From Methanocalculus natronophilus (GTDB lineage: Archaea > Halobacteriota > Methanomicrobia > Methanomicrobiales > Methanocorpusculaceae), in the NCBI RefSeq assembly GCF_038751955.1, contig NZ_JBCEXH010000004.1, positions 1-64,000 on the forward strand: a DNA stretch of 64,000 nucleotides, read 5' to 3'. Position 1 is the stretch's first letter, and the number at the start of each line of letters is the position of its first letter. The notes under the pieces are model-generated. The model made no database searches. It saw only the letters and a list, made by a program, of their open reading frames with translations, and had not been told where the DNA came from. Positions 20,851 to 53,293 of the stretch are shown in pieces. The translations under genes were made by a program, and so were the position numbers.

Positions 20851-23511
20851 ATGCTTAAGGGGTCAGATATTCAAATACAAAAGCGGACGGTACGATATCT
20901 TTTCATCGCCGTCTGTCTCGTCGCGTTTGCCCTCCTCACATTCTGGTTTCGGACACTCCCGGTCTCCCAGATTGCTACCGAGCACTGGGCCAGCCTCATT
21001 GCTGTTGGCTGTCCGGATGTCTGGTTCAGTCTCCGGCAGATTGAACAGATCGTGACACATTTTCCATCATACTCGTGGTTTGACCCGATGACTGGTTTCC
21101 CGGATGGTCGGGTAGTTCATTGGGGCCCACTTTATCCATTAATGGCTTCGGTACTCGTTCTCCTGATGGGAGCATCAACACGGCCTGAGATGATGTATGT
21201 TGCTTCGTTTCTCTCTCCCCTGATGGCGGTTGCAATGGTCCCGGTGATGTATGGGCTCGGCGCAAAGCTTGTGGACTGGAAGACGGGGCTTGTGTCTGCC
21301 GGGTTTATCTCGATTGTTGCCGGGCAGTATGCGTATCGTTCGCTCTACTCGTTTATCGATCATCATATCACCGAGACGCTCTTCTCGGCACTCTTCTGTT
21401 TGTGTTTTATCATCGCGATGATGAAGCTGAAGGAGAGCGGGGTGCGCCTTACAGATCTGGAGAGCCTGAAAAATCCGGTACTGATCTATCCTGCGCTTGC
21501 GGGCTTTGCGTTTCTCCTTGGCATGTACAACATGGGGACAATGCTTGTCTTCCTCCTTCTTGTTGCCGTCTATACCCTTATCCAGATGATCGTGGATCAT
21601 ATCAGAAAGCAAGAGACGGATTATCTTGTCGTGACAAATGCGGTCACATTTTTCGTTGTGATAATCGGTCTTATCCCCTTTGGGCTGGTTCACACCGGGT
21701 TTGGGCTGGGCCGCTATAACGTTGGCAATCTTCTGCTCGCCTTATTTGTTATTATTGGATCCCTCCTTCTCTATGCTATCTCTCGGTATCTGGCAGATCG
21801 CCCCTGGTACTATTACCCTGCGTCCCTTGCGGGTTTGTGTGTGATCTCATGGATTGTTGGTAATCTTGCCCTTCCTACAGTATTTGGTGCCTGGTATGGG
21901 CGGTTTAGCAGTGTTGTCGGGATGGGTGCAACGACGCTGACTGTCCAGGAGGCGATGCCCTGGCAGTTTGCAAACGCGGTATCGGTATTTAACTGGGGCT
22001 GGATCCTCGTTGCCGGGGGGGTTTTGTATCTCCTGTACCTGATATGGAAGAGAAACGATGCACCTGCCCTCTTCACGCTCGTCTGGTTTGCGCTCATCCT
22101 CTTCATGACCATGCGGCAGGTCCGGTTTGAATACTACCTGGCCGCAAATATTGCCCTGATGGCGGCGATATGTGTTGGTGCTGTCATGCAGATCGGCGGC
22201 CGGGATCTGCTCCGGCTCACTGGCATTGCGAAATTCCTCAAGCCTAAGGATGACGCCGTGCCTCCGGAGGATCTTCCTGATATCCCGGAAAAGCCCGGAA
22301 AGAAGGGACAAAAACAGAAAAAGGATCAGCAGAAAAGAAAGGAGCGGAAAAAAGCCCCGGCAGAACCGCCTGCAAGCCCGCTCCGATCAGGCCTGCTCGT
22401 TGTGACAGTACTCATCGCCCTTCTCTTTGTACATTCCGGAGCCTCGGCGAATTATACGATCGGCACTAATGTCAGGGAGGGTATTAATTCAGACTGGCTG
22501 GTTGCACTCACATGGCTTGGAGAGAATTCGCCGGATCCTGGTGTGGACTATTATGAGATCTATGATTCACCACAAGCACGCGATGTCTTTGAGTATCCGC
22601 CAGAAGCATATGGGGTTCTCTCCTGGTGGGATTATGGCCACTGGATAACGTTTGTCTCAAAGAGAATACCGGTTGCAAATCCGTTCCAGCAAAATGCACG
22701 AACGTCTGCTCATTTCTTCATGGAGACAGATGTCGATGCTGCATCAGCAATGCTTGATGATCTTGGCGTCAGGTATATTATCACCGACATTGAGATGACA
22801 ACCGGCAAGTTCTGGGCAATGGCAACCTGGCACGATCCGGTGAATGCGACTGGCCACTTCCAGAAGCGGGTTCTCTACGAGGAGTCTGCGGGCTCATATT
22901 CACAGGTACAGCTCCAGCGCGAGAGTTATTTCCAGACGATGATCCAGCGGCTCCATGCGTTTGATGGATCTGCAGTAGTTCCAGAACAGATACTGGTTGT
23001 TCAGTCCGCGCCAGCAAATGAGCTTGGCATTGCCGATACCTCAACACCTGTGATCATTGGTGTTGGTGAGACAGAATCGGTTGATGAGGCGCGGGCATAT
23101 ATTGCTGAATTTGAGAAGACGGCACCTGCCGGCCAGACAGCCGAGATCCTCTCCCCCGAGATGTTTGTCTCTTCTACTGAGCTGGACGCACTCCCAAATA
23201 TCCGGCTTGTATATGAATCGCCGACAAATGTTCTCAGGGACGGCGGCGACATCAGGTACGTGAAGGTCTTTGAAGTTGTGCCTGGTGCTGTTCTCGAGGG
23301 TGAAGGGATGATTGAGGTGCCAGTTGAGACGAATACCGGCCGCACATTCACCTATCGGCAGGAGAGCCGGGATGGGGTATTTGTACTGCCGTATCCAACC
23401 GAGGCAGGGCCTGATGATGTGGTTGTGGCAACAGGACCGTACCGGATTGTTGAGACCGGGCAGGAGGTATCTGTTCCATACCAGGCGGTGATTGAGGGAT
23501 TGAGGATCTAA
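20851..23511 (+). CDS. aglB: Dolichyl-phosphooligosaccharide-protein glycotransferase (STT3 family)
   Basis: 886 residues. It transfers lipid-linked glycan to Asn in NxS/T sequons on the outer face of the membrane. The N-terminal half has many membrane helices. PDVWFSLRQIEQ with D56 matches the first catalytic acidic motif, and FIDHHITET the second. The signature WWDYG is at residues 592-596, just after the last helix, followed by a soluble C-terminal domain. A Lys/Glu-rich cytoplasmic-type loop (about residues 475-505) is notable. ATG 20851 lies about 28 bases from a T/A-rich box, suggesting a leaderless mRNA. Confidence 0.95.
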   Translation: MLKGSDIQIQKRTVRYLFIAVCLVAFALLTFWFRTLPVSQIATEHWASLIAVGCPDVWFSLRQIEQIVTHFPSYSWFDPMTGFPDGRVVHWGPLYPLMASVLVLLMGASTRPEMMYVASFLSPLMAVAMVPVMYGLGAKLVDWKTGLVSAGFISIVAGQYAYRSLYSFIDHHITETLFSALFCLCFIIAMMKLKESGVRLTDLESLKNPVLIYPALAGFAFLLGMYNMGTMLVFLLLVAVYTLIQMIVDHIRKQETDYLVVTNAVTFFVVIIGLIPFGLVHTGFGLGRYNVGNLLLALFVIIGSLLLYAISRYLADRPWYYYPASLAGLCVISWIVGNLALPTVFGAWYGRFSSVVGMGATTLTVQEAMPWQFANAVSVFNWGWILVAGGVLYLLYLIWKRNDAPALFTLVWFALILFMTMRQVRFEYYLAANIALMAAICVGAVMQIGGRDLLRLTGIAKFLKPKDDAVPPEDLPDIPEKPGKKGQKQKKDQQKRKERKKAPAEPPASPLRSGLLVVTVLIALLFVHSGASANYTIGTNVREGINSDWLVALTWLGENSPDPGVDYYEIYDSPQARDVFEYPPEAYGVLSWWDYGHWITFVSKRIPVANPFQQNARTSAHFFMETDVDAASAMLDDLGVRYIITDIEMTTGKFWAMATWHDPVNATGHFQKRVLYEESAGSYSQVQLQRESYFQTMIQRLHAFDGSAVVPEQILVVQSAPANELGIADTSTPVIIGVGETESVDEARAYIAEFEKTAPAGQTAEILSPEMFVSSTELDALPNIRLVYESPTNVLRDGGDIRYVKVFEVVPGAVLEGEGMIEVPVETNTGRTFTYRQESRDGVFVLPYPTEAGPDDVVVATGPYRIVETGQEVSVPYQAVIEGLRI

Positions 23512-28050: not shown

Positions 28051-29310
28051 ATGGTTTTAACAGAACATCCGGATCCCACAGTCTGCGTCGTCGGCCTCGG
28101 GTATGTCGGCTACCCGCTCGCATGTGCATTTGCTGAAAAGATCCAGACGATCGGCTATGACGTCGATGCGAAGAAGATCGCCGCGATCAACGCTACCCCC
28201 GGCAACCTAATCGAGGCGACGACTGATCCAACGCCGATAGGAACTGCAGATATTGTCATCGTTGCTGTCCCGACACCGGTCACAAAGGCCAAGGATCCTG
28301 ATATCTCGTATATCGTCTCTGCCGGGGAGACGGTGGGGAAGCAGATGAAAGCAGGTGCGATCGTTGTTCTTGAATCAACCGTCTACCCCGGCCTCACCGA
28401 GGAGGTCTTCGTCCCGGCGCTTGAGCGTGCATCAGGCCTTGTCTGCGGCCGCGACTTCTTCGTCGGCTACTCGCCTGAGCGGATCAACCCGGGCGACGAC
28501 GACCATACCCTCGAGAAGATCACAAAAGTCGTCGCCGGCATGGACGAGGCAACCGCGGCCCGGCTCGCCGCCCTGTATGGAATGATCACAACTGTCCATC
28601 TTGCGCCTGACATCCGGACAGCTGAGGCGGCAAAAGTGATCGAGAATGTCCAGCGGGACTTAAATATCGCTCTGATGAACGAGCTTGCGATCATCTTCGG
28701 CAGGATGGGTATCGACACCCGGGCAGTCCTTGAGGCGGCTGCCACCAAGTGGAACTTCCACCGCTACCGGCCGGGCCTCGTCGGCGGCCACTGCATCCCG
28801 GTTGACCCTTACTATCTGGTGATGAAGGCAGAAGAGCTCGGCTACCACCCGCAGGTGATCCTGGCCGGCCGGGCGATCAACGACGCGATGCCCCGGCATG
28901 TTGCCCAGCTGGCGATCAAGGAGCTGAACCGGGCAGGCAGGGTGATCAAAGGCTCCCGCCTCCTCATCATGGGCCTTACCTACAAGGAGAATGTCCCTGA
29001 CACTCGTGAGAGCCCGGTGGAGGAGATGATCCGGGAGTTAAAAGAGTTTGAGATCGAGGTCTATGGGTACGACCCCCTCCTCAGGGCAGAGGATATCGAG
29101 TATTTTGGGGCGCGACCTGTGACATCGCTTGGAGAGATTGGTGGCCCGGTTGACTGCATTGTGATCAATGCCCCACACGCGTCTTTCTCAGAACTGACGC
29201 TGGAGACGGTCTGCGGGATCTGCAATGGCAAACCGATCGTTGTTGATGTGACCGGTATGTTGCGGAATGATATAAAGGTCAGGGAAGAATGTGTTTACAG
29301 AACTTTGTAG
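28051..29310 (+). CDS. UDP-N-acetyl-hexosamine 6-dehydrogenase (WecC/WbpA/TviB family)
   Basis: About 419 residues from ATG 28051 (GTG 28036 possible). [20 protein letters not shown] is the NAD motif, followed by [21 protein letters not shown] and the catalytic cysteine in [14 protein letters not shown], then [16 protein letters not shown] in the C-terminal domain. [10 protein letters not shown] distinguishes the UDP-GlcNAc/ManNAc group from the UDP-glucose dehydrogenase at 7476. It forms UDP-HexNAc-uronic acids for the glycan. Its end runs into a fragment of an unrelated ABC transporter gene. Confidence 0.9.
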
Positions 29311-29720
29311 CTCCGGATGACCAGATTATCGCCGCTGCAGAGCGTGCCAACATCCACACCTTCATCGCCGCCCTCCCGGATGGCTATGACGCAATCGTCG
29401 GCGACCAGGGGCTGAAGCTCTCCGGCGGCGAGAAGCAGCGGATCGCGATCGCCCGCGCCCTCGTCCGCGAGCCCGAGATCTTGGTGCTGGACGAGGCGAC
29501 GAGCAACCTGGACAACGAGTCAGAGGCGATCGTCCAGGCATCCATCAACCAGATATCAGAGACGATCACCACCTTTATCATCGCCCACCGGCTCTCGACG
29601 ATCCGAAGGGCAGATACGATCTATGTGATGAGCAAGGGGAGGATCGTTGAGAGCGGGGGACATGAGGAGTTGCTGGAGAGGAAGGGGAAGTACTGGGAGT
29701 TGTATGAAAGTGGGGTGTGA
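29311..29720 (+). pseudogene. C-terminal fragment of a second flippase-type ABC transporter
   Basis: The frame entering from 29289 reads [53 protein letters not shown] and [12 protein letters not shown]: the last ~135 residues of an ATP-binding domain with signature, Walker B and H-loop but no Walker A, Q-loop or membrane domain. It closely parallels, but is not identical to, the end of the intact gene at 26102-27925 and is more GC-rich. It joins the dehydrogenase gene without a spacer, indicating a deletion or recombination junction at about 29310. Confidence 0.85.
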
Positions 29721-29762: not shown

Positions 29763-32180
29763 ATGATTTCTATTGATTCACAGAAAAAAATCAAATTCGG
29801 CTCGAAAGCCGAGACGCTTGCACAAATCAATAATTTATCATTATCATGTACGATACCGCCCTTCACATTCTTCTCTCGAAAAGACTGGAGAATTCAGTCA
29901 GCTTCTCTGCTGGAAAAGATATCAAAATCATTCCAACCTTATCTTGTTGCAGTACGCAGCTCGGCAGCCTGTGAAGACGGAATCGGTCTGTCAAATGCCG
30001 GGGCATTTGAATCTATCCTCAATATTAATCCAGACAATACAAAAGAACTTCGTGAAGCGATTGAAAAGGTATTCGCCTCTTATCCTGAACAGGATGAAGC
30101 AGATCAGGTTCTTGTTCAACAGATGGTTACAGGGATTGCCGTCAGTGGTGTCATCCTAACCCGCTTCGTTGATGATGGATCTCCCTATTATGTGCTCAAC
30201 TATGATGACGAGACCGGCCGAACCGATTCCATCACAGGCGGTACCGGCGTTCACAAGACGGTGATGGTGTACCGGAAATATAAGGAAGAATATTTCGATT
30301 CTCCCCGTGTCCGAAAGATGCTTGCTTTAGCTCAGGAAATTGAAGAGATCTGCGGGTGGGTCCCCCTTGATATTGAGTTTGCTATTGATCATGATGGCTC
30401 CGTGTATCTATTACAGGTTCGGAGGATCAGCACCGTTGGAGGCTGGCATCCGGATACAGAACACCGGGTATCTCGTGTAATCCCTCAGGTAGAACGTTTT
30501 ATTGAGCACCTCTCTGCACGAAGAAAAGGTCTTTTCGGGGCATCGTCAATATTTGGCAATATGCCGGATTGGAATCCGGCAGAACTGATCGGTCCAATCC
30601 CTTCTCCCCTCGCCGCATCACTCTTCCGAAAACTGATCTCTTCGAATGCCTGGAGTGTTGCACGGGCGCAGATTGGCTACCATAAGATACCCCGTACAGA
30701 GTTGATGGTGCTCATCGGCGGACGGGCATATATTGATGTCCGGGCCAGTTTCAACTCATTTCTCCCAAAAGGGATCCCTGAAGAGATTGGAGAGAAGCTG
30801 ATCAATGCATGGCTTGCCAGACTCTCGGCCAACCCAAGTCTCCATGATAAAGTCGAGTTTGAGGTCGCCCACACAGTGCTGGACTTCACATTTGATACCG
30901 TATTTGCTGAGCGATATGGTGACGTTCTAACTCCTGAGGAGACTTGTATCTTCAAAGCCTGCCTACAGGAATTTACGAACAATGCTCTTGATATGACCGC
31001 TGCTGGCAGCCTGCCAAAGGCACTCTCCAGAATTGATAGCCTGGCAGAGGAACAGAGCAATGGTGCCCTTGAAATCAAGACAGAGAGCCCTGTTGCTCTG
31101 GCAGCGTTTATTGCCGATCTTCTGGAAGACTGTATTCAGTATGGCACCATTCCGTTTACCATTATTGCCCGGCACGGGTTCATAGCTGAGACGCTGCTTC
31201 GCTCTGCCATACAACGTGGCGCGATCACCAGGGAAAGGGTCGCTGAGTTCAAATCATCATTCAATACTATTATGGGTGAACTTGCACGTGATACGCAGGC
31301 GGTTTGTGAAGGCCGCCTCGATGAAGCTGTATTTCACGAGCGCTACGGTCACCTGCGTCCCGGTACTTTTGATATTATGTCACCCTGCTATCGGGATCGA
31401 CCCGATCTCTTTGACAACTGCAACATAGCAGATAGAGCCGATCATCAGGGTCCATTCACTTTAACAGATGAGGAAGAGCAGGCAATCAATACTCTTTTGC
31501 AAAAGGCGGGCGTTGGCTCCATAGACGCAGAAGGACTCTTTGCATATGCTCAGGCAGCAATTTGCGGGAGGGAGTATGGGAAGTTTGTCTTCTCCCGCAA
31601 CCTTTCAGCAGCGCTTGAGGCGATTGCATCATGGGGTGAGTTCTATACCCTCGGGAGAGAGGATCTTTCTTATCTCACAATTGATGATATCATCGACAGC
31701 TGCTACACCTCAACGCGGGATGAAATGACATCTGTCCTGATGCAGAAAGTAGATCAGGCACGCATCGGACAATCTTTTGCCAAACTGTTGAAACTCAGCT
31801 ATCTGATTCGTGGTGTCCGGGACATTCATGTCGTACCTATCCACCGCTCTGAGCCGAACTTCATTACACAGAAGAAGATCGAGAGGCCTTGCAAGTTCCT
31901 TGATGCAACAACGCTCAATTCAGGCTCATTGAAAGATTATATCATCTGTATCGACAATGCGGACCCCGGTTTTGACTGGATCTTTTCAAAGGGTATTGCA
32001 GGATTAATTACTAAATATGGGGGGGCAAACTCTCATATGGCGATCCGTTGTGCCGAACTGCAGCTGCCTGCTGCCATCGGCTGTGGTGAGGATCTCTTTG
32101 AAAGGTTACGGAACTGCCGGAAGATTGTACTGAATTGTGAATCAAGGGTAATCAGACCTCTGGGGTATTATGAGGGGTAG
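29763..32180 (+). CDS. L-glutamine kinase-like enzyme (Cj1418 type, PEP-synthase fold)
   Basis: 805 residues. An N-terminal ATP-grasp/PEP-synthase-type domain contains VAVRSSAACEDG, VLVQQMV and DIEFAIDHDGSVYLLQVRR. A central region has NMPDWNPAELIG, typical of this subfamily. The C-terminal swivelling phosphohistidine domain has GGANSHMAIRCAELQLPAAIG with the catalytic His at residue 758. The Campylobacter jejuni homologue Cj1418 uses ATP to phosphorylate the side-chain amide nitrogen of glutamine. No pyruvate-binding barrel is present, so it is not PEP synthase. The stop overlaps the next gene by 11 bases; the three following genes are the cognate pathway partners. Confidence 0.83.
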   Translation: MISIDSQKKIKFGSKAETLAQINNLSLSCTIPPFTFFSRKDWRIQSASLLEKISKSFQPYLVAVRSSAACEDGIGLSNAGAFESILNINPDNTKELREAIEKVFASYPEQDEADQVLVQQMVTGIAVSGVILTRFVDDGSPYYVLNYDDETGRTDSITGGTGVHKTVMVYRKYKEEYFDSPRVRKMLALAQEIEEICGWVPLDIEFAIDHDGSVYLLQVRRISTVGGWHPDTEHRVSRVIPQVERFIEHLSARRKGLFGASSIFGNMPDWNPAELIGPIPSPLAASLFRKLISSNAWSVARAQIGYHKIPRTELMVLIGGRAYIDVRASFNSFLPKGIPEEIGEKLINAWLARLSANPSLHDKVEFEVAHTVLDFTFDTVFAERYGDVLTPEETCIFKACLQEFTNNALDMTAAGSLPKALSRIDSLAEEQSNGALEIKTESPVALAAFIADLLEDCIQYGTIPFTIIARHGFIAETLLRSAIQRGAITRERVAEFKSSFNTIMGELARDTQAVCEGRLDEAVFHERYGHLRPGTFDIMSPCYRDRPDLFDNCNIADRADHQGPFTLTDEEEQAINTLLQKAGVGSIDAEGLFAYAQAAICGREYGKFVFSRNLSAALEAIASWGEFYTLGREDLSYLTIDDIIDSCYTSTRDEMTSVLMQKVDQARIGQSFAKLLKLSYLIRGVRDIHVVPIHRSEPNFITQKKIERPCKFLDATTLNSGSLKDYIICIDNADPGFDWIFSKGIAGLITKYGGANSHMAIRCAELQLPAAIGCGEDLFERLRNCRKIVLNCESRVIRPLGYYEG

Positions 32181-32817
32181 TACGGATCTCCGTCTGGGTC
32201 TATCCATGCGGGTTGTGGAAGCGACCGGATATGTTGAGCCTCGTGATGCCCTGGCACAGGACTGGTCGGTCTTTTTAAAGCGTGTACTTCCGGACGCCCA
32301 CTGGATTCCTGTACCCAATATTGGGAAGGATGTTAGTGAATTAATTGAGTACTGGGGTTTGAATGGTTTCATCCTGACAGGTGGGAACAATATCCATGAT
32401 GCTCCAATACGTGATGAAACCGAATTGACTATGCTGGAGTATGCAACCCGGAATACATTGCCGGTCCTTGGGGTCTGCCGGGGGATGCAGATGATCTGCC
32501 ATTACTATAATCAGAGTCCTCTCCCCTGCCAGAATCCTCACAACCATGTTGCAACAATCCACAGGGTACATTTGACAGACAATTTTCTGCAATGGGATGA
32601 AGATGAATTGACGGTCAACTCATTCCATGAGCAGTGTGTGGGTACAGGCGATCATTTTAGAGGAGAGTTAAAGTCATTTGCCATTGCCGATGATGGACTT
32701 GTTGAGGGGGTCATAAATGCCGAAAAGACGTTGCTTGGTATCATGTGGCATCCCGAGAGAGAGAATCCGGCGTCAGACTTTGACGAATATCTAATTAGAA
32801 CTTTCTTTTCGAGATAA
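32170..32817 (+). CDS. Gamma-glutamyl-CDP-amidate hydrolase-like class I amidotransferase (Cj1417 type)
   Basis: 215 residues. Class I glutaminase fold with the nucleophile C103 in LGVCRGMQM and the H194/E196 pair in MWHPERE. The substrate-side FILTGGNNIHD matches the gamma-glutamyl hydrolase/GATase group. In C. jejuni Cj1417 removes glutamate from L-gamma-glutamyl-CDP-amidate, releasing cytidine diphosphoramidate. No synthase domain is attached. The start ATG lies inside the end of the glutamine-kinase gene, so translation is coupled. Confidence 0.82.
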   Translation: MRGSTDLRLGLSMRVVEATGYVEPRDALAQDWSVFLKRVLPDAHWIPVPNIGKDVSELIEYWGLNGFILTGGNNIHDAPIRDETELTMLEYATRNTLPVLGVCRGMQMICHYYNQSPLPCQNPHNHVATIHRVHLTDNFLQWDEDELTVNSFHEQCVGTGDHFRGELKSFAIADDGLVEGVINAEKTLLGIMWHPERENPASDFDEYLIRTFFSR

Positions 32818-32828
32818 GAGGAATAAAA

Positions 32829-33569
32829 ATGCGTGGAATCATACTTGCAGCAGGACGCGGTTCACGACTGGACCGAAGAACCGATGACAGGCCGAAATGC
32901 CTGGTGGAGCTATCCGGACATCCGCTATTAGAGTGGCAACTGGGAGCGATGCATAATGCAGGCATCGATGATATTCTTGTTGTCAGAGGATATCGCGGTG
33001 AGATGATAAAAGGAGCATTTGAGGTGCGTGATAACCCCGACTGGCCGCAGACACACATGGTAGCAAGCCTGATGTGTGCCCATGAATGGCTTGCTGAGGA
33101 TGAGTGTATTATATCATACTCTGATATCGTGTATGGTGCAGATGCCATTACTCAGTTGAGTAATGCGGATGGATCACTTGCCATCCTCTATGATACACGG
33201 TGGCGCGAACTCTGGCAGGAGCGGTTTGATGATCCGCTCTCTGATGCAGAGAGTTTCTCTGTTGATGAGAATGGAAATATTCTGGATATTGGGCGGAAAG
33301 GAGTTTCATTTGATGATATCCATGGACAATACATGGGTTTGTTGAAGTTCACTCCTGAATCATACCGGTGGATTGCTACACTGCTTGATAATCAGGTCGA
33401 GTTGAAGAACAAACTGGATATGACGTCTCTACTATCACGCCTTATTCAGGACGGACATTCTATTCAGGGAGTACCCTGGGATGGGGTATGGTGCGAGGTT
33501 GATGATGGATCTGATCTTGAAGTTGCTGAAGGAAAGGTTCGGGCAGGAGAGCTTGTTTTTCCCAAATAG
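32829..33569 (+). CDS. CTP:phosphoglutamine cytidylyltransferase-like enzyme (Cj1416 type)
   Basis: 246 residues, single GT-A-like nucleotidyltransferase domain: GIILAAGRGSRLDRRTDDRPKCL, the LSGHPLLEWQL acceptor strand, YSDIVYG as metal-binding DxV/D region and WCEVDDGSDLEVAE near the C-terminus, resembling phosphocholine cytidylyltransferase-type proteins. In the Campylobacter pathway Cj1416 joins CMP from CTP to the phosphoryl group of glutamine phosphate. Eleven bases separate it from the preceding gene. Confidence 0.82.
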   Translation: MRGIILAAGRGSRLDRRTDDRPKCLVELSGHPLLEWQLGAMHNAGIDDILVVRGYRGEMIKGAFEVRDNPDWPQTHMVASLMCAHEWLAEDECIISYSDIVYGADAITQLSNADGSLAILYDTRWRELWQERFDDPLSDAESFSVDENGNILDIGRKGVSFDDIHGQYMGLLKFTPESYRWIATLLDNQVELKNKLDMTSLLSRLIQDGHSIQGVPWDGVWCEVDDGSDLEVAEGKVRAGELVFPK

Positions 33570-33598
33570 TTCAAAACGATTTGTTGAGGTTCTCTGAT

Positions 33599-34117
33599 AT
33601 GATCATATGGCTGGTAGGGTTGTCCGGGTCAGGGAAGACAACCATTGGAAGAGAGATGTATAAGCTCTGGAAGCCTCATGCTCCAAATACCGTCATGGTT
33701 GATGGGGACGATGTCCGGAGGATACTTGGCTGTGATACCGAGCCCCGTGACTATACAATGGAGGGGCGAAGAAATCTGGCCATGCAATATGCTGAGATCT
33801 GTTTATGGCTGGATGAACAGGATATTAATGTGATCTGCTGTACCATCAGTAACTTTGAAGATATCTATATCAATAATCGGGAGCGGTTTTCTAAGTACTA
33901 TCAGGTCTTTATTGATGCACCAATTGAACTTCTGAAAAAGAGAGATCCGAAGGGTCTTTACAGCCGGGCAGCAGCGGGTACAGAAACAAATGTTGTTGGG
34001 ATCGATCTTCCCTTCACCCCTCCAAAAACTTCTGATTATACAATTTGTAATGATGAAACAGCACCCAGCCCTGAAGACATCGCTTATGGTATTTTAAAAG
34101 CAGCGGGGATTGTATGA
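33599..34117 (+). CDS. Cytidine diphosphoramidate 3'-kinase-like enzyme (Cj1415 type, APS-kinase fold)
   Basis: 172 residues from ATG 33599, preceded by TTGAGGT (the frame extends six codons further up without conservation). MIIWLVGLSGSGKTT has the P-loop with K13; VDGDDVRRILGCD matches the APS-kinase DGDxVR motif; GLYSRAAAG fits the substrate loop. True APS kinases phosphorylate the 3'-OH of adenylyl sulfate. The C. jejuni Cj1415 enzyme of this subfamily phosphorylates the 3'-OH of cytidine diphosphoramidate. No sulfurylase or PAPS gene is nearby, favouring the latter. Overlaps the next gene by 4 bases. Confidence 0.8.
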   Translation: MIIWLVGLSGSGKTTIGREMYKLWKPHAPNTVMVDGDDVRRILGCDTEPRDYTMEGRRNLAMQYAEICLWLDEQDINVICCTISNFEDIYINNRERFSKYYQVFIDAPIELLKKRDPKGLYSRAAAGTETNVVGIDLPFTPPKTSDYTICNDETAPSPEDIAYGILKAAGIV

Positions 34118-34986
34118 AAAATCGGCTGGATCGCTGGATATTTGGTAAAGAACAGGAGATCCTTGCTCTTGAAACAGATGGACCTCCTCCAAAATACGCC
34201 GATCTCCACCTCCACACCACCGCCTCCGACGGCACCCTCACCCCCCGTGAGCTAGTTATCGCGGCAAAAGATGCAGGGCTCTCCACCATTGCTATCACCG
34301 ATCATGATACGATCGATGGCATCGAAGAGGCATGCCGAGCTGGCCGCGAGTTTGATCTGGAGGTGATCCCTGGAATCGAACTCTCTACAATAGACGGCAA
34401 AAAGGAGATTCATATCCTGGGTTATTTCATTGATCCCACGAATTGCAGTTTAAATGCCATCATCCAAAAGATGATTGATGCCCGGGAGAATCGGGCTGTT
34501 CGTATGGTGGAGAAACTCAATGAGCTTGGGATCGAGATTACCGTTGAAAGGGTGCGTGAGATTTCAGGAACAACATTTATCGGCAGACCGCATATTGCGC
34601 GGGTAATGCAGGAGATGGGCTATATTGAAGAGCAGTCTGAAGCATTCACAACAGAGTACATCGGCAGCGGCGGAAGGGCATATATTGAGCGGTTTAAGAT
34701 AACGCCCGCGGATGCCATCTCACTGATTCATGAGGCTGGCGGTGTGGCTGTTCTTGCGCATCCAGGTTATCTTGGTGATCGGAGTACGCTTGGTGAAGAA
34801 GATATTGCGCGGTATGTCGGGTTAGGGTTGGATGGGGTGGAGGTGTATTATGCAAAGCATACAGAAGAGCAGGTTGAGTATTATAAGGGATTGGCACTTA
34901 CGTATGGGTTGATGATGACCGGAGGATCGGATTTTCATGGGGGTAAGGATTTATTATCATTTTTTATCATCAAGTCGGTAGTGTGA
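34114..34986 (+). CDS. PHP-family metal phosphoesterase (TrpH/YciV-like)
   Basis: 290 residues. PHP motifs in order: YADLHLHTTASDGT (H32, H34, D39), ITDHDTIDG, IPGIELST, HILGY, FIGRPHIARVM, VLAHPGY and GGSDFHGG. Members such as YciV/TrpH hydrolyse nucleoside 3',5'-bisphosphates to 5'-mononucleotides. The ATGA overlap with the CDPA-kinase-like gene ties it to the phosphoramidate operon, where the expected by-product of transfer from a 3'-phospho-CDP donor is cytidine 3',5'-bisphosphate. The last ~15 residues after SDFHGG are atypical, so the C-terminus may be altered. Confidence 0.8.
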   Translation: MKNRLDRWIFGKEQEILALETDGPPPKYADLHLHTTASDGTLTPRELVIAAKDAGLSTIAITDHDTIDGIEEACRAGREFDLEVIPGIELSTIDGKKEIHILGYFIDPTNCSLNAIIQKMIDARENRAVRMVEKLNELGIEITVERVREISGTTFIGRPHIARVMQEMGYIEEQSEAFTTEYIGSGGRAYIERFKITPADAISLIHEAGGVAVLAHPGYLGDRSTLGEEDIARYVGLGLDGVEVYYAKHTEEQVEYYKGLALTYGLMMTGGSDFHGGKDLLSFFIIKSVV

Positions 34987-35017
34987 GTAGTTCATATAAA
35001 AAATGAATGGTGCGTTA

Positions 35018-36214
35018 ATGAGTATTAATTATAATGATTTATTTCATCACCTTGAAAACCTGAAAATTGTTGTTCTTGGTATAGATTATACACGACCCGG
35101 ATCTGATTTTTTCCAGAGCTTAACTGATGGTCATCCGGAAATTATTCAGACAACTGGAACCTGCCTTTATAGATATCATGGGTTTTGGGGTTCTGCTGTA
35201 TCAAAAGATAATGTACAGGATCTAGTTGAAGAATTTATATATTTCCCATATCATATGCCCCTTTTTGATTCAAGATTCAGAGTTACAGAGAGATGGAATA
35301 AACTTGGTGTTAATAAAAATGAACATTTTGAAGTAGATATTCCGTTATTCCGCCAACATGCACTGGGTTTTATGGAAGGAAAAGAAGTAAACTTCCGTAA
35401 TTTCTTTTTAGCGGTTCATGGTGCATATGCTTTAACCTTGGGTCAGAATATTAAAAATGCGAAGATTATTTTTTATCATATTCATCATATTAAAAACTGG
35501 GAAAGATATATGCCTGATTTCCCAAATTTTAAAATTATAATAATGACAAGGGATCTCAGAGATGGATTAGTTTCATATATTGAACATAGAAAACCTGGAT
35601 CAGCTAGTTACTGTCGACCAGACTCTCATATTGCCCCATTGAGCACATATTCATCGATTTTTTATTATGTTAAGAAATATGATGATGTCATCTTCCTTTC
35701 TCTCAGGGATCTTCATCATGAGCCATCTAAGATACTTAGCTGCTTTTGTAAAGATGTAAATATACAATTTTTACCAGAAATATTATTGGAATCAAGTTAT
35801 CATGGAAAATTGTGGTGGGGAGATATTATGTCCCCTAAATTTATTAATGGTTTTAATCCGGAATTTGGGAAAATCAATAGATGGAAAGGTAAATTAAGTC
35901 AAATTGATAATCTTATAATCGAATTTTTATATCATAATCAATTCATGGCATTTAATCATCCTCGAAAGCATGGAAACTTATTATATTACGTAATGTACCT
36001 ATTGGCACCAATAGTTATTTTTAAGCCAATGAGGTACGAAATGAAATTTTTCTTTTATCAAGTTAGACGGAGAGATATGTCTCCTACCAGAAAAATTAAA
36101 TTTTGCCTATTTGCATTATTAAATTATTTAGTTAGGATTAAAATATACTTGGTAGTATATTTTAGAAAAATCACTCTCCAAAAAATCAAAATTACAAAGT
36201 ATGGTGATTGTTAG
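35018..36214 (+). CDS. Sulfotransferase-fold protein, candidate phosphoramidate transferase
   Basis: About 398 residues from ATG 35018 (GGTG upstream; ATG 35003 lacks a site). The sulfotransferase 5'-phosphate loop appears as DYTRPGSDFFQSLTDGHPEI and the 3'-phosphate-binding region as TRDLRDGLVSYIEH (R178, S186); LSLRDLHHEPSKILSCF matches the later yEDL..P block. The first loop lacks the usual SGT, having PGSDFF. Strongly AT-rich compared with the upstream operon, so it was probably acquired separately. With no PAPS synthesis gene in view but a 3'-phospho-CDP-amidate route directly upstream, transfer of phosphoramidate to a sugar hydroxyl is my inference. Confidence 0.6.
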   Translation: MSINYNDLFHHLENLKIVVLGIDYTRPGSDFFQSLTDGHPEIIQTTGTCLYRYHGFWGSAVSKDNVQDLVEEFIYFPYHMPLFDSRFRVTERWNKLGVNKNEHFEVDIPLFRQHALGFMEGKEVNFRNFFLAVHGAYALTLGQNIKNAKIIFYHIHHIKNWERYMPDFPNFKIIIMTRDLRDGLVSYIEHRKPGSASYCRPDSHIAPLSTYSSIFYYVKKYDDVIFLSLRDLHHEPSKILSCFCKDVNIQFLPEILLESSYHGKLWWGDIMSPKFINGFNPEFGKINRWKGKLSQIDNLIIEFLYHNQFMAFNHPRKHGNLLYYVMYLLAPIVIFKPMRYEMKFFFYQVRRRDMSPTRKIKFCLFALLNYLVRIKIYLVVYFRKITLQKIKITKYGDC

Positions 36215-51707: not shown

Positions 51708-52748
51708 ATGGATATTGCAGATTTCTATAAGGGAAAGACGGTCCTTGTCACCGGCGGGGTTGGGTCGATTGGTAGTTATCTGGTTTGGGAACTCCTCAAG
51801 TACGAGCCTATGAGTGTCCGGGTCCTCGATAATAACGAGACCGGGCTTTTCGATCTTGAACAGGCTCTCCAATCAGATCGAATTCGCCTGCTTGTTGGGG
51901 ATATACGCGATAAAGAGCGGCTTACTGTCGCAATGGAAGGTGTTGATATCGTCTTCCATGCGGCAGCTCTCAAGCACGTTCCTCTCTGTGAGTTCAATCC
52001 GTATGATGCGGTGAAGACAAATGTCATTGGTACCCAGAATGTACTTGACGCTGCGTACGATCAGGGTGTTAAAAAAGTCATCACCATCAGCACTGATAAA
52101 GCAGTGAATCCTTCAAATGTGATGGGGGCGACAAAACTTCTTGCCGAGCGGCTTACCATCTCTGCAAATATGTACCGTGGGCATAAGCGATCGTCTTTTT
52201 CCTGTGTCCGTTTTGGCAACGTCCTCAATTCACGGGGATCGGTTATACCACTCTTTACACAGCAGATTCAAAAGGGAGGACCGATAACCGTCACTCATCC
52301 GGAGATGAGACGATTCTTCATGGATATTCCATCTGCCACAGGACTTATCCTCAAAGCGGGGATGCTGTCTACCGGAAATGAAATCTTCATCCTGAAAATG
52401 CCTGCAGCCCGTATTATGGATCTTGCAGAGGTTATGCGGGATCTCCTTGCTCCAGAATATGGCTTTAAGCCGGAAGAGATTGCTATCGAGATCATTGGTA
52501 TGAGGGTTGGTGAAAAGATCGATGAAGAACTCCTGATAAGTGATGAAACAAGTTGTGTATATGATAATGAGGATATGATTGTCGTGATCCCAAAACAGCA
52601 ACCCTTCGCTAGGGGGTATTCACCTCAGGACCATGTGCATGATGGCTTTCATCTTGTGACAATGGATTCGTATTCTTCAAAGGATGCGCAGTTGTTGACG
52701 AGAGAGGAGATCATTAATCTACTCAATAAGATTGGTATGGAGGCATGA
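51708..52748 (+). CDS. UDP-GlcNAc 4,6-dehydratase-like protein (CapD/LegB/PseB family)
   Basis: 346 residues starting at the base after the previous stop. VLVTGGVGSIGSYLVWELL, FHAAALKHVPLCEFNPYDA and STDKAVNPSNVMGATK (modified catalytic segment with Lys) define the soluble CapD/PseB/LegB group; RRFFMDIPSATGLIL follows. First step in UDP-linked legionaminic or pseudaminic acid synthesis. Its end overlaps the PseI fragment (ATGA). Confidence 0.9.
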   Translation: MDIADFYKGKTVLVTGGVGSIGSYLVWELLKYEPMSVRVLDNNETGLFDLEQALQSDRIRLLVGDIRDKERLTVAMEGVDIVFHAAALKHVPLCEFNPYDAVKTNVIGTQNVLDAAYDQGVKKVITISTDKAVNPSNVMGATKLLAERLTISANMYRGHKRSSFSCVRFGNVLNSRGSVIPLFTQQIQKGGPITVTHPEMRRFFMDIPSATGLILKAGMLSTGNEIFILKMPAARIMDLAEVMRDLLAPEYGFKPEEIAIEIIGMRVGEKIDEELLISDETSCVYDNEDMIVVIPKQQPFARGYSPQDHVHDGFHLVTMDSYSSKDAQLLTREEIINLLNKIGMEA

Positions 52749-53293
52749 TCCACACCGCTCGCGATGCCGGATGCCGGGATCTGATCCTTCTCAAGTGCAC
52801 AAGCACCTACCCGGCCACCCCTGAGAACAGCAACATCCTCACCATCCCGCATATGCGCGAGCTCTTCAACTGTGAGGTCGGCCTCTCGGATCACACGCTT
52901 GGGATCGGCGCAGCGGTGGCGGCGGTCGCCCACGGCGCAACGGTGATCGAGAAGCATTTCACGCTCAGCCGCGCTGACGGCGGGGTGGACAGCGCCTTCT
53001 CGATGGAGCCAGCTGAGCTGAAAATGCTGGTAGAGGAGACAGAGCGCGCCTGGCAGTCGCTTGGCGGGGTCGTGTACGGGCCGACTGAGGCAGAGAAGAA
53101 ATCCCTGATGTTCCGCCGGTCGCTGTATGTTGCCGAGGATATGAAGGCTGGGGATATCTTCACGCGGGAGAACCTGCGGTGCGTCCGGCCGGGGCTGGGG
53201 CTTGCGCCAAAGTATTATGAGGTTTTATTGGGGAAGCGGGCTAATAGGGATGTGAGGAAGGGTAAGGGTGTTGAGTGGGGGATGGTTGGATGA
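52745..53293 (+). pseudogene. pseI: C-terminal half of pseudaminic acid synthase
   Basis: 182 residues. LILLKCTSTYPATPENSNIL, VGLSDHTLGIGAA, HFTLSRADGGVDSAFSMEP, then the SAF domain FRRSLYVAEDMKAGDIFT and IRPG-like RCVRPGLGLAPKY are PseI. The first ~165 residues, including the EAGxNHNG metal/PEP site, are absent, so synthase activity is not expected. It is GC-rich and fused by an ATGA overlap to the dehydratase gene, so it may still be translated. Confidence 0.88.

Follow-up and report, generated by a model that had tools for sequence, protein, structure and literature searches.

The closest described route to a phosphoramidate donor is the O-methyl phosphoramidate pathway of Campylobacter jejuni, in which four enzyme families make the donor (Cj1415-Cj1418; PMC3907429, PMC11800397). 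The donor steps and the 3'-phosphorylation by the CDP-amidate (CDPA) kinase go back to work of the Raushel group, according to the passages of PMC12409886 and PMC11800397 that cite it, and one paper describes the glutamine kinase as specific to C. jejuni (PMC9561416). The archaeal cassette described here contains the same four donor-making families, but lacks a recognised adjoining methyltransferase gene, has an extra PHP phosphatase and is followed by a sulfotransferase-fold candidate where C. jejuni relies on the transferases Cj1421/Cj1422. A first-pass annotation had called this protein the missing phosphoramidate transferase. The word "missing" goes too far, as deletion of Cj1421 and Cj1422 abolishes phosphoramidate modification, which assigns these transferases genetically in Campylobacter (PMC3907429, PMC11800397). 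In the literature searched, we found no paper linking a sulfotransferase with phosphoramidate transfer.

With respect to the fold, the known relatives are TPST1, TPST2 and the sulfotransferase domain of CurM (Sulfotransfer_3), which have in common with the window protein the fold (Z 13-14), the arginine of the 5' loop, an LDxHP motif past this loop and the R-x7-S site. In contrast, identity is 11-14%, the window protein has SD instead of TT in the loop and ~80 extra C-terminal residues, its host has no detected PAPS synthesis and its gene adjoins a CDPA cassette. Loci for PAPS-dependent sulfation (ATP sulfurylase, APS kinase and sulfotransferase, as in the archaeal genomes G132 and G134) follow the same kinase-plus-sulfotransferase logic, whereas the window has no ATP sulfurylase and a kinase of predicted CDPA type. 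Members of PF04464, which act on CDP-linked phosphoryl donors, occupy the same operon slot in other glutamine-kinase loci, but they are a GT-B family without detectable similarity to the window protein.

The donor cassette and its breakpoint

The window, i.e. the whole stretch of DNA that was analysed (64,000 nucleotides; contig 4, 1-64000), comes from a 2.0 Mb archaeal genome with a completeness of 99.7%. Among glycan genes, which include one for an AglB-type oligosaccharyltransferase (20851-23511), lies a five-gene cassette at 29763-34986, which is predicted to make the phosphoramidate donor 3'-phospho-CDP-amidate and is located directly upstream of the sulfotransferase-fold gene. The features are as follows.

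29763..32180, + strand: glutamine kinase (PPDK_N plus PEP-utilizers; relative of Cj1418); NCBIfam NF004508, 879 bits, cut-off 501; Pfam
32170..32817, + strand: gamma-glutamyl-CDP-amidate hydrolase-like; NCBIfam NF045546, E 1.7e-29, 103 bits, under the cut-off of 250
32829..33569, + strand: CTP:phosphoglutamine cytidylyltransferase-like (NTP_transf_3); Pfam; falls into one cluster with the nucleotidyltransferases from 65 glutamine-kinase loci
33599..34117, + strand: predicted CDP-amidate 3'-kinase (APS-kinase family, CDPA type); PF01583, 90 bits; NF004041, 156 bits, cut-off 127; clade; motif
34114..34986, + strand: PHP phosphoesterase, candidate 3'-phospho-CMP phosphatase; NF041577 (3',5'-nucleoside bisphosphate phosphatase), 194 bits, under the cut-off of 400
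34943..34944, no strand: right end of the cassette common with sister genome G042 (blastn; left edge 29756)
35003..36214, + strand: sulfotransferase-fold protein, candidate phosphoramidate transferase; 403 aa; family profile, predicted structure, conserved sites
35090..35113, + strand: 5'-phosphate loop TRPGSDFF, residues 30-37; all family members have R31 and G33
35549..35575, + strand: 3'-phosphate site R183..S191 (R-x7-S); S191 invariant, R183 near-invariant

For the hydrolase-like gene, NF045546 is the best family, although below cut-off, and the operon position is right. The PHP phosphoesterase is closest to 3',5'-nucleoside bisphosphate phosphatases; its match stops ~23 residues before the end of the profile, which leaves its activity uncertain. 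Other matches to the cytidylyltransferase in the phylum (L039-L041, besides the sister genome) adjoin a transporter-like gene, not a glutamine kinase, and were discarded.

The sister genome G042 carries the five-gene cassette at 97-99.8% identity, split over two contigs, and the shared stretch ends within the 3' end of the PHP gene, which is altered by the breakpoint: compared with its counterpart in the sister, the PHP gene of the window ends differently (34943-34986), right past a GGSDFHGG motif. The sulfotransferase-fold gene is situated beyond this recombination breakpoint. Its GC content of 31% resembles the AT-rich downstream genes, as opposed to 45-49% in the cassette. In G042, the next gene past the cassette encodes a CDP-glycerol glycerophosphotransferase-like protein (PF04464) and there is no sulfotransferase, which excludes that the sulfotransferase is part of the conserved cassette and speaks against the interpretation given in the first-pass annotation. 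The window also contains the C-terminal fragment of an ABC transporter ATPase (29289-29720), immediately to the left of the cassette boundary (29756), and at 52745-53293 a NeuB-family gene without its N-terminal part (the profile begins at position 132), beside two longer genes (43525 and 45490) that resemble sialic-acid synthases.

The sulfotransferase-fold protein and its donor supply

The ATG of the sulfotransferase-fold gene follows the stop codon of the PHP gene by 16 bp, so that its placement after the phosphoramidate operon, as first annotated, is correct. The gene itself also stands; its start does not, since 35018 is the second in-frame ATG (398 aa), while the open reading frame starts at 35003. 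For this reason, the 3'-phosphate site formerly numbered R178..S186 is now R183..S191. The frame and the predicted binding sites are intact.

Taken alone, the window protein has no noteworthy match in Pfam, NCBIfam or the PDB sequences (a YgdR lipoprotein match, E 0.014, was discarded as chance), and it retrieves no relatives in the phylum, in genome contigs (exact peptide patterns) or in plasmids. The sulfotransferase claim was therefore tested via relatives, which surfaced only through glutamine-kinase neighbourhoods. All-against-all comparison of 92 such loci (including the window, two pieces of the sister genome and plasmid loci) yielded L110 (E 1.5e-20), L059 (1.7e-15) and L076 (3.5e-11), and via these L062, L087 (two copies), L105, L108 and L113. 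Across the window protein and its nine relatives from glutamine-kinase loci, R31, G33, D42, H44, F116 and S191 are invariant and R183 is near-invariant. Relatives L059, L113 and L062 exceed the Sulfotransfer_3 cut-off of 27 bits (42.7, 48.4 and 37.0 bits, respectively), and the family profile finds TPST1 (E 9.4e-20) and the CurM sulfotransferase (3.4e-13). An AlphaFold model built with the relatives in the alignment reached a pLDDT of 71.9 and a pTM of 0.75, whereas the model without alignment was unusable (pLDDT 41.7). In a structure search with the former, all 50 PDB entries among the matches listed were sulfotransferases, with a best Z of 14.4 over 242 residues. Family profile, model and conserved residues thus bear out the initial description of a sulfotransferase-like protein with a 5' loop and a 3' site: it belongs to the sulfotransferase superfamily as a divergent member on the Sulfotransfer_3/tyrosylprotein-sulfotransferase side, with the predicted fold being the firm part of this assignment. 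The 5' loop does deviate from (R/K)SGTT, retaining R and G, with TT replaced by SD in the window protein and by SGS or SGG in relatives; furthermore, inspection by eye shows no obvious glutamate where TPST has its catalytic base.

The absence of a PAPS-synthesis gene, first noted for the window, holds genome-wide for ATP sulfurylase, CysD and a second full-length APS kinase. In the 99.7%-complete host genome, ATP sulfurylase was not found and there is no CysD (best CysD-like score 30.7, cut-off 396.6); CysN acts jointly with CysD. The cassette kinase is the only full-length member of the APS-kinase family in this genome. In a phylogenetic tree, kinases of glutamine-kinase operons form a clade separated from 29 archaeal APS kinases by a split with support 100/97, except for three long-branched rows from such operons that group with the APS kinases. 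The window kinase falls into this CDPA clade, which is marked by [AC]x[ILM]S[MLIVN]F..NR as opposed to xISPYxxxRxxAR in APS kinases, and itself reads CTISNF, not SxISPY. By clade and motif, the cassette kinase is predicted to be a CDPA-type 3'-kinase rather than an APS kinase. Elsewhere in the phylum, four archaea were found in which a sulfotransferase lies close to an APS kinase, two of them (G132, G134) with ATP sulfurylase also close by; this combination of all three is the ordinary sulfation arrangement and differs from that of the window.

Linkage and fusion across glutamine-kinase loci

A sulfotransferase-like gene occurs in 19 of the 92 glutamine-kinase loci, often less than 100 bp away and on the same strand. 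Genes within 100 bp of a core gene are found in L062 (two), L113, L114, L125, L134 and L049, and, on the opposite strand, in L060. Across 40 genomes, Sulfotransfer_3 genes are ~22 times commoner near the glutamine kinase than in the remainder of those genomes (6 observed against 0.27 expected), a figure that is an upper estimate of the specific link because the loci are glycan clusters, which are generally enriched in sulfotransferases. Moreover, kinase and sulfotransferase occur in one polypeptide. In L109 (Verrucomicrobia), kinase residues 9-156 precede a Sulfotransfer_1 domain at 223-410 (92 bits); in L048/L056, from two Azospirillum plasmids, an N-terminal sulfotransferase-like domain, with a weak sulfotransferase score (E 0.08), precedes the kinase. 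The kinase domains of both fall into the CDPA clade, at separate places, and two fusions are therefore likely. This linkage to glutamine-kinase operons in many phyla, together with the two separate fusions to CDPA-type kinases, backs the interpretation of the protein as a phosphoramidate transferase. The bacteria in which such linkage occurs may well be PAPS producers.

At the level of genomes, the expected co-occurrence of close homologues with the glutamine kinase fails. We sampled 337 genomes, the class-mates of the genome of L059 (G296, the chosen centre), and the association between relative and glutamine kinase was not significant: besides G296, 12 genomes have a relative and 14 a glutamine kinase, with a single genome (G561) having both, 2.2 kb apart. 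Strong relatives are present in the centre and in G424, G549, G560 and G675, the latter four all without glutamine kinase, and G346 has several paralogues located away from it. Since most strong relatives in this class come from genomes that lack the glutamine kinase, the subfamily is not specific to phosphoramidate; assigning function from homology alone would be wrong, and context decides.

A second gene type is found in the same setting. PF04464-like genes are present in 18 of the 92 loci, often overlapping the CDPA kinase gene, and concentrate in Pseudomonadota. They never share a locus with a sulfotransferase: 3.7 shared loci would be expected among the 92, and there is none (P 0.009, not adjusted for kinship). 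A GT-B member of the CDP-glycerol glycerophosphotransferase family probably takes the slot of the window protein in the sister species and at other glutamine-kinase loci. We infer that the donor cassette is stable and that the transferases, each specific for its acceptor, can be exchanged, by analogy with Cj1421/Cj1422, which are separate from Cj1415-Cj1418.

The loci contain further variants. A Formyl_trans_N gene (~245 aa) and a ~190-aa companion without Pfam match (clusters c5 and c6) are present at L128:8656-9971 and in ~24-30 other glutamine-kinase loci, repeatedly between the CDPA kinase and the glutamine kinase. Cluster c35 (L102, L106, L112, L117, L121; ~416 aa) is GDSL-like, always adjoins the CDPA kinase, usually together with a methyltransferase, and is perhaps a third transferase or an esterase type. 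The operon of Agrobacterium vitis (L053:11908-16997) has no recognised CDPA kinase and contains a CDP-alcohol phosphatidyltransferase, which suggests another use of CDP-amidate. On a Vibrio alfacsensis plasmid (L050:8475-10880), cysD/cysN lie divergently beside a glutamine-kinase operon whose last gene is CDP-glycerol glycerophosphotransferase-like. L055 (MT837632.1), labelled a bacteriophage yet resembling a bacterial contig, encodes a glutamine kinase fused to a glutamine-amidotransferase-like domain. Overall, among the matches listed, the glutamine kinase is matched by more than 550 stretches of bacterial genomes.

Candidate function and competing explanations

With CDPA genes adjoining, no detected sulfate-donor route and related enzymes linked or fused to the pathway in unrelated bacteria, the window protein may attach phosphoramidate, rather than sulfate, to surface sugars. 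As the best single explanation, which we hold with slightly better than even confidence, it would be one of two alternative phosphoramidate-transferase types, the one with a sulfotransferase fold. By homology to the Campylobacter enzymes, the cassette would make the donor by phosphorylating glutamine on its amide nitrogen, adding CMP, removing glutamate and phosphorylating the 3'-OH. The transferase would grip the 3'-phosphate via R183/S191 and the 5' side via the TRPGS loop, and would most likely move the phosphoramidate of 3'-phospho-CDP-amidate onto a hydroxyl group on a surface glycan. The released 3'-phospho-CMP could then be recycled by the putative PHP phosphatase, as PAP phosphatases do after sulfation. 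The fold, the sites, the absent PAPS route, the locus linkage, the fusions, the PHP gene and the lack of a PF04464-like gene in the window count for this explanation; against it count the sister cassette without the gene, the low GC content, the position beyond the breakpoint, the relatives without glutamine kinase and the deviant 5' loop (S-D instead of T-T).

Several of these points bear on other explanations. The true transferase could be of the GT-B type, from the CDP-glycerol glycerophosphotransferase family as in the sister species, encoded elsewhere or lost, with the sulfotransferase as unrelated cargo of the downstream glycan cluster. This would agree with the PF04464-like gene directly past the sister's cassette, with the recurrence of such genes next to CDPA kinases, with the known use of CDP donors by this family and with the AT-rich composition that the sulfotransferase-fold gene shares with the downstream cluster. 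However, a profile of operon-linked PF04464 members matches no open reading frame of the 64 kb window, and the kinase-sulfotransferase fusions and 19 linked loci would be left unexplained; we regard it as rather unlikely. The protein could, instead, be an ordinary PAPS-dependent sulfotransferase, acquired with the glycan cluster and either idle or fed with PAPS by an unrecognised route. Its fold and sites are like those of PAPS enzymes, its relatives occur in genomes without glutamine kinase and PAPS-type sulfation loci are present in other archaea of its phylum, but the near-complete genome without ATP sulfurylase, CysD or a second full-length APS kinase and the intact frame and binding sites make this still less probable. 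Use of another 3'-phosphonucleotide donor, or a non-catalytic binding role, e.g. as a donor relay, would fit the altered loop TRPGSDFF and the TPST catalytic-base glutamate that is not obvious by eye; conservation of the R-x7-S site and of the long C-terminal region speaks against it, and we consider it highly improbable.

Returning to the phosphoramidate transferase of sulfotransferase fold, the first-pass annotation had also proposed that this protein explains why the donor is 3'-phosphorylated. The fold alone is insufficient for this, because PF04464-like loci carry the same kinase. Whether there is a class of sulfotransferase-fold enzymes, spanning lineages, that uses 3'-phospho-CDP-amidate to transfer phosphoramidate, as a second donor chemistry parallel to PAPS, appears to us evenly balanced; such a class may comprise a parallel set of an APS-kinase-like enzyme, a 3'-phosphonucleotide donor, a sulfotransferase and a 3'-phosphonucleotide phosphatase.

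In summary, the glutamine kinase, described as C. jejuni-specific (PMC9561416), is now found in an archaeal glycan cluster, and the kinase-sulfotransferase fusions are compact enzymes for a direct test of the idea. If true, the logic of PAPS-dependent sulfation would have been reused for P-N chemistry. This would shed some light on the purpose of 3'-phosphorylation by the CDP-amidate kinase, and the transferases behind phosphoramidate-modified glycans would be named, both for archaea and for many bacteria.
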